Shown here: positions 37,830-41,763 of the stretch, piece by piece | How the letters are laid out: each line of letters begins with the position of its first letter | Position numbering within the stretch: position 1 is the first letter of the stretch | Origin: Acidobacteriota bacterium | GTDB lineage: Bacteria; Acidobacteriota; B3-B38; Guanabaribacteriales; JAGGZT01 | Direction of reading: 5' to 3' | Assembly: GCA_021161905.1 (NCBI GenBank) | Contig: JAGGZT010000067.1 | Coordinates: 1-41,894, forward strand | DNA length: 41,894 bases | Program-made: the position numbers and the translations under genes | The notes under the pieces: generated by a model | Databases searched by the model: none | The model's input: the letters and a program-made list of their open reading frames with translations, nothing else | Told to the model about the DNA's origin: nothing

Positions 37830-37919
37830 CTTAAAAAGAAGAAGCATATATAATATAACTTGAGATGGATTTGTGATTATGTAATAGAGCCTACAATTGA
37901 TCCTTTAAGGAGGTTCTCA

Positions 37920-39473
37920 ATGGAGTTAAATATTAAAAAGAAAGCATTGATCACTTCCGTATTCCTTGTTTTCCTTTCCCTTTCCCTTTTTGCCCTTGAT
38001 CGCGTCCCTCTCGTGGTCGATACCGATATGGGGCTCGATGATATGAGGACGATCCTTGTTCTCCTCAATTCTCCTCGTTTCTCCGTTCGAGCGATTATTA
38101 CCGTTTCCGGCTCCTCTCGGGCAGAGGTGGGGGCGAAGAATATGGCGCGCCTCCTTTCCCATCTCGGTATCATCTCGGTCCCGGTAGCTCCTTTTCCGGA
38201 AAGAGCGGTTGCTATGGCGAAGACCCCTCCTCCCTGGCGGGAAGTGGCGGAGAATATGGGAGGGATTGAGCTTTCCCCTGTAATTGAGGTAAGGGCGAAG
38301 CAGAACGGGGAGAAGCTTCTGCTCAGGGTTTTGAAAGAGGAGACGGAGCCGATAACCATCATCGCGTTGGGACCGCTTACGAACATCGCCCGTTTCCTCT
38401 CAGAACATCCGGAACTTAGAGGGAAGATAAGGGAGATAATCTTTTCCGGAGGAAACCTCGGGAGGCTTTCGCGATCGTTCAATATCTCCTTCGATCAAAC
38501 CGCTTTCCTCAAGGTGAAGGGAAGTGGTATCCCCTTCAGGGTGATCGGTTTTCCGGAGAGGGAGAAGAGAGGGTTTCCCGAGCTTCTCCGCGCCATTTGC
38601 GAAGGTAGGGAGTACGCTTCCCCCGTTATCGCTGGTATCTTTTCAAACGAGGAAATGAGGCGACACTTCCATCTTTCGGATGAGCTGGTAGCCCTCTTCC
38701 TCCTTAAGCCGGATATGTTTCGGACCTTCAAGCCCAATGGGGCGAAGGCTGATACCACTTGCTACCTCGCCCTGAAGAAGGGGACGGAGGATGAACTGAT
38801 GAGCGTTATCGTCTCCCGACTTACTCACCTGAGGAATACCATAGGACATCGGCATTATGTAGGAGTAGAGAGGCTTTTCCCCGGGGATACCCTCCTTCCG
38901 GATATTAGGAAGGTGGCGCCGGTCGTCATCTCCCGCTACGGGCTTTATGAGTGGGAGTCGGTGATGTTGATGAACGAGCTCCATCAGCACCTTGGCGCTT
39001 ATTCCATCGTTGGGGTGAAGATGGGACTTTACGCCCTCGAATTGCTCAAGGCAGGTCCAGAGGAGGTAAAGGTGGTCTCCGAAGCGGGAAGTAAGCCCCC
39101 GGTCAGCTGTCTTTCCGATGGGGTGATGGTAGCAACCGGAGCCACCCCGGGGCGGGGTTTGATCCGGGTGGAGGAGAGAGGAATCCCTTCCTGCCGTTTT
39201 TACTATCAGAATAAGGTGTTGAGGTTGGAGCTACTTCCTTCGTATAGGAAAAAGATAAAAGACGAGATAAAAAGCCTCATCGCTCGATATGGGAACCTTA
39301 CCCCGGGCTATTTTCGCGGGGTGAGGAGATTTTCCCTTAAGCTATTTCGCGAGTTCGACCGAAGGAAAATATTTAAGGTAGAGTGGCTATCGGAGCGGGT
39401 TATCACCCGGCAGGCACCGCCTGCAGCGGTGGATACCATCCACAGGGATTCATTCATATCAGAGGGAAAGTAG
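37920..39473 (+). CDS. Exported nucleoside hydrolase-like protein fused to an FmdE-like domain
   Basis: The 517-residue protein has a signal peptide (to about residue 25). An inosine/uridine-preferring nucleoside hydrolase domain follows (about 28-305), with the calcium-binding VVDTDMGLDDM (34-41), ALGPLTNIARFL and a late Asp in GAKADTTCYLAL. A second domain (about 340-450) resembles the formylmethanofuran dehydrogenase subunit E family: HQHLGAYSIVGVKMGLYAL, PPVSCLSDGVMVATGATPGRG. The family's usual second Cys (GCT) is Ala here. The ATG at 37920 follows AAGGAGG; an upstream in-frame start (37860) has no signal peptide. The last 22 codons or so (39405-39473) are repeat DNA, and the TAG stop is inside a REP head. 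Confidence 0.75.
   Translation: MELNIKKKALITSVFLVFLSLSLFALDRVPLVVDTDMGLDDMRTILVLLNSPRFSVRAIITVSGSSRAEVGAKNMARLLSHLGIISVPVAPFPERAVAMAKTPPPWREVAENMGGIELSPVIEVRAKQNGEKLLLRVLKEETEPITIIALGPLTNIARFLSEHPELRGKIREIIFSGGNLGRLSRSFNISFDQTAFLKVKGSGIPFRVIGFPEREKRGFPELLRAICEGREYASPVIAGIFSNEEMRRHFHLSDELVALFLLKPDMFRTFKPNGAKADTTCYLALKKGTEDELMSVIVSRLTHLRNTIGHRHYVGVERLFPGDTLLPDIRKVAPVVISRYGLYEWESVMLMNELHQHLGAYSIVGVKMGLYALELLKAGPEEVKVVSEAGSKPPVSCLSDGVMVATGATPGRGLIRVEERGIPSCRFYYQNKVLRLELLPSYRKKIKDEIKSLIARYGNLTPGYFRGVRRFSLKLFREFDRRKIFKVEWLSERVITRQAPPAAVDTIHRDSFISEGK
39406..39452 (-). repeat. Palindromic repeats inside the 3' end of the fusion gene
   Basis: Two hairpins lie within the coding region. GCAGGC/GCCTGC around ACC (39410-39424) sits in a 20-base stretch (39406-39425) identical to 39691-39710. 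GTGGAT/ATCCAC around ACC (39429-39443), read on the minus strand, follows the TGAATCC head at 39452-39446 and a CT, exactly as in the repeat at 39631-39655. Confidence 0.8.
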
Positions 39474-39527
39474 GGACAGCCCTTGCGGCTGTCCTTATTA
39501 GCGGACAGGGACAAGCCCTGTCCCTAC
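39470..39527 (+). repeat. REPIN 1: inverted REP pair
   Basis: Left REP: head GTAG (39470-39473), arms GGACAGCC (39474-39481) and GGCTGTCC (39487-39494), loop CTTGC. Right REP on the other strand: arms GGACAGGG (39503-39510) and CCCTGTCC (39516-39523), loop ACAAG, ending CTAC (39524-39527). The linker is 8 bases. The TAG in the left head is the stop codon of the preceding gene. Confidence 0.92.
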
Positions 39528-39541
39528 ATTAAAAAGATGTA

Positions 39542-39566
39542 GTAGGGACAACCCTTGCGGTTGTCC
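39542..39566 (+). repeat. Single REP, variant stem
   Basis: GTAG head, arms GGACAACC (39546-39553) and GGTTGTCC (39559-39566), loop CTTGC. One stem pair is changed on both sides (G-C to A-T), so pairing is kept. Confidence 0.88.
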
Positions 39567-39630
39567 AGAGGAAGATTGCCACCTGGGGAGGGTTATTTAT
39601 GGATCCCTGATAGCGGTTGCCATCTCCCTA

Positions 39631-39655
39631 TGAATCCCTGGCGGTGGACACCGCC
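39631..39655 (+). repeat. TGAATCC-headed hairpin
   Basis: Head TGAATCC (39631-39637), CT, arms GGCGGT (39640-39645) and ACCGCC (39650-39655), loop GGAC. Confidence 0.8.
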
Positions 39656-39656
39656 C

Positions 39657-39681
39657 GGACAGGGGCAAGCCCTGTCCCTAC
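39657..39681 (-). repeat. Single REP, inverted
   Basis: Arms GGACAGGG (39657-39664) and CCCTGTCC (39670-39677) around GCAAG, ending CTAC (39678-39681). It begins one base after the hairpin before it. Confidence 0.9.
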
Positions 39682-39709
39682 GGGCAACCGCCCGGCAGGC
39701 ACCGCCTGC
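39681..39709. repeat. Two adjacent GC-rich hairpins
   Basis: CGGGC/GCCCG around AACC (39681-39694) and GCAGGC/GCCTGC around ACC (39695-39709). The second is part of the 20-base copy found in the fusion gene. Confidence 0.7.
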
Positions 39710-39732
39710 ACTGATTCATAAATTGAATGCCC

Positions 39733-39774
39733 GGCGGTGCTACCGCCTATATGAATCCGCGAGGTGGCAACCTC
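39733..39774 (+). repeat. GGCGGT hairpin plus TGAATCC-headed hairpin
   Basis: GGCGGT/ACCGCC around GCT (39733-39747), then TGAATCC (39752-39758), GC and GAGGT/ACCTC around GGCA (39761-39774). The same order recurs at 41142-41183. Bases 39732-39800 and 41141-41209 differ at only about four positions. Confidence 0.85.
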
Positions 39775-39775
39775 T

Positions 39776-39835
39776 GTAGGGACAGCCTTTATGGCTGTCC
39801 TTGTATTTTAGGACAGGGATAAACCCTGTCCCTAC
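39776..39835 (+). repeat. REPIN 2: inverted REP pair
   Basis: Left REP with GTAG (39776-39779), arms GGACAGCC/GGCTGTCC, loop TTTAT (to 39800). Linker of 10 bases. Right REP with arms GGACAGGG/CCCTGTCC, loop ATAAA (39811-39831) and CTAC (39832-39835). Confidence 0.92.
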
Positions 39836-39848
39836 GGGCGCCCGCCCG
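39835..39848. repeat. GC-rich hairpin after REPIN 2
   Basis: CGGGCG/CGCCCG around CC. The same element follows the inverted REP at 41015-41028. Confidence 0.7.
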
Positions 39849-39869
39849 CTGGGGATAATATGAAAAAAT

Positions 39870-39894
39870 GTAGGGACAGCCCTTGCGGCTGTCC
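39870..39894 (+). repeat. Single REP
   Basis: GTAG (39870-39873), arms GGACAGCC (39874-39881) and GGCTGTCC (39887-39894), loop CTTGC. Confidence 0.9.
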
Positions 39895-39927
39895 TCAGGT
39901 GACTACCGGATGCCGTGTCTCCCAATA

Positions 39928-39987
39928 TGAATCCGTGGGGGTGGACACCCCCCTGGGGGTGGTTACCCCCCTTGCGATTGTTCGCAA
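39928..39987 (+). repeat. TGAATCC-headed hairpin and two trailing hairpins
   Basis: TGAATCC (39928-39934), GT, arms GGGGGT/ACCCCC around GGAC (39937-39952). Next is a headless copy GGGGGT/ACCCCC around GGTT (39955-39970), then TTGCGA/TCGCAA around TTGT (39972-39987). The following 39988-40111 shows nothing clear. Confidence 0.75.
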
Positions 39988-40111
39988 AATATTGGTAAAA
40001 TAATAAAAGACAGGTTTTGTCACCACGGGCTTTTAAAATATAAAGAGGGGTTTTGTAGGTATTTGTAAAAGAGAAAGGGAGAGATGGGCTCTATCTTTAC
40101 CTGAAATTAAG

Positions 40112-40132
40112 ATCGGCGTGATTTTCGCCGAT
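40112..40132. other. Hairpin in the leader of the TPR gene
   Basis: The 7-bp arms ATCGGCG (40112-40118) and CGCCGAT (40126-40132) surround TGATTTT. It ends 32 bases before the start codon and overlaps the first bases of a 25-base segment that recurs inside the gene. Confidence 0.35.
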
Positions 40133-40155
40133 AATGGATATCAGGGGAACCCGGA
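40131..40155 (+). repeat. 25-base leader segment repeated inside the TPR gene
   Basis: Bases 40131-40155 and 40720-40744 match at 23 of 25 positions. The second copy is in frame and codes for part of a non-TPR insert (IMGIRRTR region). Confidence 0.7.
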
Positions 40156-40164
40156 AAGGAGGGG

Positions 40165-40965
40165 ATGATGTTTAGGATGAAAAAGGCGGTGTTTCCCGTG
40201 GCTGTTTTTCTTATTTTTCTTTTTGCTTTTGGGGTATGGGGAACACCGCTACAGAAGAAGAAACCCGCCAGCGCAAAGAAGAAGGAAGGTGAAGCATTTT
40301 TATTATATTTAAAGGGAATGAACCTTTCTGTTCAAGGGAAATACAAGGAAGCCATTGCCTGTTTCAGGAAGGCGATCAAGCTGAAGCCCGATTATGTAAA
40401 GGCATACTTCGGGCTGGGCTATGCATACGGTGAGCTTGGTCGCTATCAGGAGGCTATCGAAGCTTATAAGCAGGCGATCCGGCTGAAGCCCGATGATGCG
40501 GAGGCACACTTCCAGCTGGGCGTGGCATACGGTGAGCTTGGTCGGTGGTCCGAGGCGGTTACCGCCTTTAAGGAGGCGATCCGGCTGAAGCCCGATGATG
40601 CGGAGGCACACTACAATCTGGGCGTGGCATACGGTAAGCTTGGTCGGTGGTCCGAGGCGGTTACCCCTTTTAAGCAGGTGATCAGAGAGGAGATCAGAGA
40701 TTCGAAGGTTTTTTCTCCTATAATGGGTATCAGGAGAACCCGGACCGAGCTAGAGAGAAAGGCGTGGCACAATCTGGGTGTGGTTTATAGTAAGCTTGGT
40801 CACCCTTACGAAGCGCATAAAGCTTTTGGAAAGGCGGCCCATGGCTTCTTTGACTTGGTGGGAACCCGTCTGGTTTATCTGGACCCCCAGGATATTTATT
40901 TTCATTCTGTTCATGTAGATTACGAGACAGTAGACAATGAGTTGATCAACTTAATCTACAAGTAG
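40165..40965 (+). CDS. Exported TPR protein embedded in the REP cluster
   Basis: The 266-residue protein has a signal peptide (MMFRMKKAVFPVAVFLIFLFAFGVWG), a basic linker and four TPR units of 34 residues. GRYQEAIEAYKQAIRLKPDD and GRWSEAVTAFKEAIRLKPDD are typical. The DNA of the units starting near 40479 and 40581 differs at only about eight of 102 bases, so they duplicated recently. An insert (about 173-195) partly made of a copied leader segment interrupts the array before a final TPR-like unit. The ATG at 40165 or 40168 follows AAGGAGGGG. The stop TAG (40963-40965) lies in a REP head. A scaffold or adaptor role is the usual inference. Confidence 0.8.
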   Translation: MMFRMKKAVFPVAVFLIFLFAFGVWGTPLQKKKPASAKKKEGEAFLLYLKGMNLSVQGKYKEAIACFRKAIKLKPDYVKAYFGLGYAYGELGRYQEAIEAYKQAIRLKPDDAEAHFQLGVAYGELGRWSEAVTAFKEAIRLKPDDAEAHYNLGVAYGKLGRWSEAVTPFKQVIREEIRDSKVFSPIMGIRRTRTELERKAWHNLGVVYSKLGHPYEAHKAFGKAAHGFFDLVGTRLVYLDPQDIYFHSVHVDYETVDNELINLIYK

Positions 40966-41015
40966 GGACAGCGGGCAACAGTTGCCATCCGGACAGGAGC
41001 AAGCCCTGTCCCTAC
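40962..41015 (+). repeat. Degenerate REPIN 3
   Basis: GTAG (40962-40965) and a broken left arm (GGACAGC), then a different small hairpin GGCAAC/GTTGCC (40974-40986). A right REP follows with arms GGACAGGA/CCCTGTCC (one mismatch, 40991-41011) and CTAC (41012-41015). The TAG is the stop of the TPR gene. Confidence 0.8.
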
Positions 41016-41028
41016 GGGCGCCCGCCCG
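41015..41028. repeat. GC-rich hairpin after REPIN 3
   Basis: CGGGCG/CGCCCG around CC, identical to 39835-39848 and in the same position relative to an inverted REP. Confidence 0.7.
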
Positions 41029-41043
41029 CGCGAATTCAGGGAT

Positions 41044-41101
41044 GTAGGGACAGCCCTTGTGGCTGTCCGTCTTTTAGGACAGGGACAAGCCCTGTCCCTA
41101 C
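41044..41101 (+). repeat. REPIN 4: inverted REP pair
   Basis: Left GTAG (41044-41047) with arms GGACAGCC/GGCTGTCC, loop CTTGT. The linker is GTCTTTTA (41069-41076). Right arms GGACAGGG/CCCTGTCC, loop ACAAG, ending CTAC (41098-41101). Confidence 0.93.
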
Positions 41102-41113
41102 GGGAATCGATAA

Positions 41114-41183
41114 TGAATCCACGGGGTGGTTACCCCCGCTCGGCGGTGCTACCGCCTATATGAATCCGTGAGGTGGCAACCTC
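41114..41183 (+). repeat. TGAATCC-headed hairpins around a GGCGGT hairpin
   Basis: TGAATCC (41114-41120), AC, GGGGT/ACCCC around GGTT. Then GGCGGT/ACCGCC around GCT (41142-41156). Then TGAATCC (41161-41167), GT, GAGGT/ACCTC around GGCA (to 41183). Confidence 0.85.
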
Positions 41184-41184
41184 T

Positions 41185-41242
41185 GTAGGGACAGCCCTTG
41201 CGGCTGTCCGTCTTTTAGGACAGGGGCAAGCCCTGTCCCTAC
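41185..41242 (+). repeat. REPIN 5: inverted REP pair
   Basis: Left GTAG (41185-41188), arms GGACAGCC/GGCTGTCC, loop CTTGC. The linker GTCTTTTA (41210-41217) is identical to REPIN 4. Right arms GGACAGGG/CCCTGTCC, loop GCAAG, ending CTAC (41239-41242). Confidence 0.93.
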
Positions 41243-41253
41243 ACAAGATTTTA

Positions 41254-41276
41254 AGGGATAAAAACCCTGTCCCTAC
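41254..41276 (-). repeat. Truncated inverted REP beside the transposase
   Basis: AGGG/CCCT around an A-rich loop, then GTCC and CTAC (41273-41276). The left arm has lost its outer four bases. It lies 10 bases from the transposase stop. Confidence 0.75.
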
Positions 41277-41286
41277 ATATATATTC

Positions 41287-41763
41287 TCAGATTATTTTAT
41301 CTGGGCATCCCGAATAGGGATAATCGCTCCATTTCTCTACTAAATTTTTCCTAACTGGATTATTTAAAATGTATTTCACAATCTCGGATAAATCTTCGCT
41401 CTTTCGCACAATATGATCGTAAAACCGGGGCTGCCATATCTTCCCTTCGATTCTAAATTTCTTGCATAATCTATACGCTTTGCTTTTAAAGGAGCCCACG
41501 AAGTTAGATACATTCGCCCCTTGCTTCTCAGGTTGGATTAACAAATGCAAATGATCGGGCATCAGACAATAAACATAGAGGTTCACACCCGATCTATCTT
41601 TTTCTTTAATCAGACAATCTATTATCGTCTTATTAAGCTGGTCGTTTACAAAGATTTTCCTTCGGTTAAAGGTGCAAATTGTTATGAAATAAACATAGGG
41701 GAGGGAATAATCGAACCCCCTTAGCCTGGGGTTTTTCCTCTGGGGAAGATGGTTTTCTTCCAT
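41287..41763 (-). CDS. REP-associated tyrosine transposase (RAYT, Y1/HUH family)
   Basis: This 158-residue single-domain HUH nuclease belongs to the IS200/Y1_Tnp superfamily. The metal-binding HUH motif is MPDHLHLLI (H71, H73). The candidate catalytic tyrosine is Y115 in WQPRFYDHIVR. The family ending YILNNPVRKNLVEKWSDYPYSG is present. The N-terminal PYVYFITICTFNRRKIF is the usual beta strand of RAYTs. In the family, the Tyr cuts single-stranded DNA at REP hairpins next to the GTAG/GGAG tetranucleotide. Here GTAG-headed REPs lie on both sides. The frame is intact, so the enzyme may be active. The short length fits a RAYT rather than a two-gene IS200/IS605 element. Confidence 0.92.
   Translation of the reverse strand: MEENHLPQRKNPRLRGFDYSLPYVYFITICTFNRRKIFVNDQLNKTIIDCLIKEKDRSGVNLYVYCLMPDHLHLLIQPEKQGANVSNFVGSFKSKAYRLCKKFRIEGKIWQPRFYDHIVRKSEDLSEIVKYILNNPVRKNLVEKWSDYPYSGCPDKII

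Follow-up and report, generated by a model that had tools for sequence, protein, structure and literature searches.

The window, i.e., the whole analyzed stretch of 41,894 nucleotides, carries two genes that end at arrays of short palindromic repeats, and a transposase gene lies beyond the second array (Table 1). The first gene encodes a fusion of a nucleoside hydrolase and an FmdE domain, and the second encodes a TPR-repeat protein. The TTG start of the fusion ORF is probably too early because a signal-peptide-like segment, MELNIKKKALITSVFLVFLSLSLFA, starts inside the ORF. Near-full-length matches to the fusion occur in only three others of 396 sampled genomes of the phylum.

Table 1. Features at the two gene ends and around the RAYT gene in the window
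Feature	Position	Strand	Basis or components
Fusion gene, nucleoside hydrolase (IU_nuc_hydro) + FmdE domain	37860..39473	+	Pfam PF01156 E 2e-30, PF02663 E 8e-15; orthologues L032, L070, L071
25 codons of the fusion gene, residues 513-537, RVITRQAPPAAVDTIHRDSFISEGK	39396..39470	+	non-GTAG palindromic repeats CGGGTTATCACCCG, GCAGGCACCGCCTGC, GGATTCAT unit
Complete GTAG REP, TAG 39471-39473 = fusion gene stop	39470..39494	+	covariance model score 43.3 bits; fold z -5.28
REP array	39503..39894	.	39503-39527(-), 39542-39566(+), 39657-39681(-), 39776-39800(+), 39811-39835(-), 39870-39894(+)
TPR-repeat protein gene, stop TAG 40963-40965 within REP head	40165..40965	+	ORF; Pfam TPR
Isolated REP head GTAGGGACAG without own hairpin, supplying or overlapping TPR stop	40962..40971	+	20 bits only
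Second REP array	40991..41276	.	40991-41015(-), 41044-41068(+), 41077-41101(-), 41185-41209(+), 41218-41242(-), 41252-41276(-, degenerate)
RAYT (REP-associated tyrosine transposase)	41287..41763	-	NF047646 121.7 bits, cut-off 80; single PF01797 hit
REPs beyond the RAYT gene, contig end	41825..41893	.	covariance model

Several lines of evidence identify the repeats and the RAYT, judged from their sequences, as an ordinary GTAG REP/RAYT system with putative mobilization by the RAYT. First, the 25-nt consensus of 15 aligned window copies, GTAGGGACAGCCCTTGCGGCTGTCC, consists of a 5' GTAG tetranucleotide and a short palindrome, and its length lies within the 20-40 bp of GTAG REPs. Second, the repeats are multicopy and alternate in orientation within the arrays. 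The exact head GTAGGGACAG occurs 16 times in the window, where shuffled sequences average 2 even with one mismatch permitted, and 37 times in the genome. Third, the RAYT gene is the sole Y1_Tnp gene of the genome and has REPs on either flank, as expected for a cognate RAYT.

The genome census combined pattern and covariance-model searches with fetched stretches. In the 2.09 Mb genome, the covariance model yielded 40 matches at E ≤ 0.01 in 11 clusters, and because clusters sit at contig ends (C7, C47, C59, C62 and C67, five of the eleven), the assembly probably breaks at REPs and this copy number is an undercount. One loop-closing pair in the base-pair string of the model was off (12-17, not 12-18), for which little effect on the census is expected because conserved columns dominate the scores. 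Across three other genomes from its order, the model gave one weaker match in total. A phylum-wide search with a 26-nt pattern, one nucleotide longer than the family unit, returned only scattered GC-rich lookalikes and missed the window's own copies; it is uninformative on the spread of the family. A second palindromic repeat type, with GGCGGTGNNCACCGCC-like stems beside ATGAATCC/GGATTCAT, is intermingled with the GTAG REPs, including those of the array 39503..39894. It is present at 39396-41170 and in REP clusters C7, C47, C52 and C62, and no transposase obviously belongs to it.

The initial annotation described both genes as terminating on the TAG of a GTAG head after an AAG codon, which is what the sequence and the ORF list contain. 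Each stop is formed by bases 2-4 of a head, and the ends of the fusion ORF (537 codons; 39468-39479) and the TPR ORF (266 codons; 40960-40971) both read AAG TAG GGACAG. Because both ORFs have Pfam domains, the head TAG is the in-frame stop of real genes. The AAG common to both genes carries less weight than it seems to, since its G is already part of the repeat, as the first base of the head; the bases shared by chance are AA, two only, and most heads have T just before GTAG. We therefore dropped the codon as a meaningful feature.

The two heads differ in structure. The REP at 39470 has a full hairpin. By contrast, the element at 40962 is an incomplete REP: its hairpin half is absent (GTAGGGACAGCGGGCAACAG...), the covariance model matches it only with a 25-nt insertion, and the fold of 40957-40990 has a shuffle z-score of −0.73. 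This head forms a structure only together with the inverted REP at 40991-41015, with which it pairs (z −3.85), and we class it as a head remnant consisting of the 10-nt head only. These differences bear on the idea that evolution retained the heads on the stops because the hairpin stalls ribosomes or protects the mRNA. The hairpin at 39470-39494 begins at the stop itself and is strongly folded, and work cited in PMC12306157 reports lower translation in E. coli when a REP lies less than 16 nt from a stop. However, the REP at the TPR stop lacks a hairpin of its own, the locus is common to no relative, and no T-run intrinsic terminator was found at either stop, where the suggestion that the hairpin terminates the mRNA thus gains no support. 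Thus, while the hairpin at 39470 may possibly act on the fusion mRNA by protection or ribosome stalling, we regard a retained function as a highly improbable explanation of the two overlaps.

It was also argued that two such coincidences would be unlikely. A REP unit has no stop other than the head TAG, whichever way and in whichever frame it is read, and therefore a gene entering a REP head-first ends there with a probability of ∼1/3. Given that both genes run into a head, the probability that both are in the TAG register is 1/9 (p = 0.11); the argument is thus weak and the pair alone is not significant. In the three frames from the tail junction of the fusion gene, stops lie at 39471 (TAG), 39499 and 39530, and the alternative registers of the TPR gene have stops at 41045 and 41169. 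This frame null, together with the lack of any sign of an altered native end in the TPR gene, would be compatible with pure coincidence, i.e., with both genes having ended natively nearby and the heads having fallen in the TAG register by chance. We nevertheless give this explanation hardly any credence, because the last 25 codons of the fusion gene are repeat sequence missing from its orthologues.

The C termini of the fusion proteins are informative in this respect. The three orthologues (33-38% identity) end in ...DREKIFSESEVTASGR, ...DRAEIFEEVPAQ and ...NRKDIFNIEIID, i.e., 6-10 residues beyond the last common motif, a conserved [KED]IF. The window protein continues for 7 residues beyond this motif (...DRRKIFKVEWLSE) and then carries 25 repeat-encoded residues that the orthologues lack. 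Within the coding sequence of this tail, 39396-39425 matches the array segment 39681-39710 at 87%, and the GGATTCAT unit at 39446 has counterparts dispersed across several REP clusters. Thus, the alignment called for by the initial annotation reveals an extension up to the head TAG, and the stops of the REP-free orthologues lie at a different codon. These observations support its proposal that REPs replaced the 3' end of the fusion gene and donated the stop: the repeats overran the native stop, and the frame ended at the first in-frame stop, lent by the REP TAG. Because the orthologues are so divergent, we can only infer the exact native end of the gene in this lineage.

For the TPR protein, homology ends at the TPR repeats. 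Among the 396 genomes, there was no homologue of its last ∼40 residues, a C-terminal search giving TPR-repeat matches only. The same kind of stop donation may have taken place here, with the hairpin-less head remnant.

An alternative is that REPs insert preferentially at or next to stops, with a short target motif of the RAYT overlapping TAG or being accessible at gene ends. In this genome, no REP head in the remaining clusters supplies the stop of a real gene, and many heads are far from genes or upstream of them, which speaks against such a preference. Of the other ORFs that terminate on a head, the longest has 74 codons and lies inside the window's own array. The genome-wide enrichment of heads at TAG stops sought by the initial annotation is thus absent, although opportunities are few, and the five clusters at contig ends lack the adjoining genes. 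Tail-first REPs follow two further genes at distances of 2 and 17 nt (G000:C15:17734-17763 and G000:C71:37122-37164), in keeping with a location of REPs near gene 3' ends.

As a control, we analyzed one scan for a Stenotrophomonas REP, comprising 120 loci of up to 8 kb each (945 kb in total), in which genes were called mechanically as ORFs of ≥120 aa with coding-like GC3. This set contains 384 unique GTAG palindromes and 212 genes that end on a head or within 400 nt upstream of one. Gene ends fall exactly on the head TAG in 13 of the 212, at offsets 1-4 in none, and at offsets 5-16 in ∼4 per position; 12 genes read through a head. The TAG register accounts for 13/16, 13/20 or 13/25 of the genes if read-through is limited to ∼100 nt, to ∼450 nt or not at all (p = 0.0001, 0.004 and 0.04, respectively, against 1/3). 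There is, therefore, an excess over the frame expectation that depends on how read-through is counted, and it is moderate evidence only because the cut-offs were picked after the data were seen.

Close orthologues were present among the loci for 5 of the 13 TAG-ending genes, and four of these five have no head and stop at a TGA: one codon later (L195 compared with L241), three codons earlier (L133 with L125), at the same codon (L234 with L186) or at about equal length (L156 with L191). The fifth (L203 with L185) likewise has the TAG of a GTAG element as its stop. Because the head-less orthologues end in TGA 0-3 codons away, the TAG was brought by the element, close to the native end, and was not a required target, which again argues against insertion at stops. 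It is true that REPs generally lie near gene 3' ends: in Stenotrophomonas, they crowd within ∼20 nt after stops in both orientations, and according to a published survey, REPs are found no more than 20 bp from gene 3' ends. Both observations, as well as the 13 head-facing genes that end on a head, favor an insertion preference; however, crowding after stops is also expected if insertions inside genes are lost. Altogether, with 13/212 cases in Stenotrophomonas and no other real-gene stop in the genome studied here, we consider the claim that REPs insert at stop codons very unlikely to explain the two genes.

Instead, we consider it highly probable that both stops arose incidentally as a GTAG REP/RAYT array expanded around the genes. 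We suggest that REP clusters arrive at gene 3' ends or grow across them; the TAG would then terminate any reading frame that meets the head first and in the matching register, with read-through in the other registers. In the fusion gene, where the comparison with orthologues shows the replacement, the array erased the native stop, and the frame crossed ∼75 nt of other palindromic repeats, adding 25 residues, before meeting the REP TAG as the first in-frame stop after the tail. REPs would remain at such positions since proteins often tolerate an altered C terminus. The Stenotrophomonas control suggests that register selection, in which the TAG frame is kept and read-through is lost, may also contribute. 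A bolder extension, which we think rather doubtful, is that REP-rich genomes keep the TAG register in more than 1/3 of cases, that heads function as portable stops making insertion at gene ends harmless, and that the TAG is under selection for element survival. Whether GTAG heads are kept for this reason can be tested with existing genomes.

GTAG REP termini have been reported to "often provide" a TAG stop (Di Nocera et al. 2013, PMC3733652); therefore, the phenomenon is already known, and REP-supplied stops are a known side effect of such repeats rather than a special insertion mechanism. The window family shares with that superfamily the GTAG head, the palindrome, the arrangement in opposite-orientation dimers and clusters, a REP-flanked RAYT, the use of the head TAG as the stop of flanking ORFs, and the presence of REPs that encode 20-30 residues within ORFs. 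It differs in having a low copy number (∼40) and its own stem, GGACAGCC/GGCTGTCC, in being mixed with the second palindromic repeat type, and in being missing, bar the one weaker match, from the host's three order relatives. The Stenotrophomonas GTAG REPs (SMAG) similarly have heads at gene 3' ends, including the exact TAG-stop cases; however, they are present in hundreds of copies, and in the tested cases the C-terminal change is -1 to +3 residues, compared with ∼25 here. Rickettsia palindromic elements (RPE), as outlined in PMC3733652, are likewise palindromic repeats translated within proteins, but they are mostly in-frame insertions inside genes, whereas the window repeat forms a C terminus and supplies the stop. 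What the present case adds is another REP family, a gene whose C terminus has clearly been replaced, and a null expectation based on reading frame. The fusion gene provides a worked example of a REP array that overwrites a gene 3' end and adds a repeat-encoded tail, illustrating that gene ends can drift by picking up repeat stops and cautioning annotators that C-terminal tails of this kind are not native.

The window also contains a 34-nt repeat (88%) with one copy upstream of the TPR start (40122-40155) and one inside the TPR coding region (40711-40744), where it encodes a non-TPR stretch of the protein. In a genome search with its 25-nt core, these were the only two copies.
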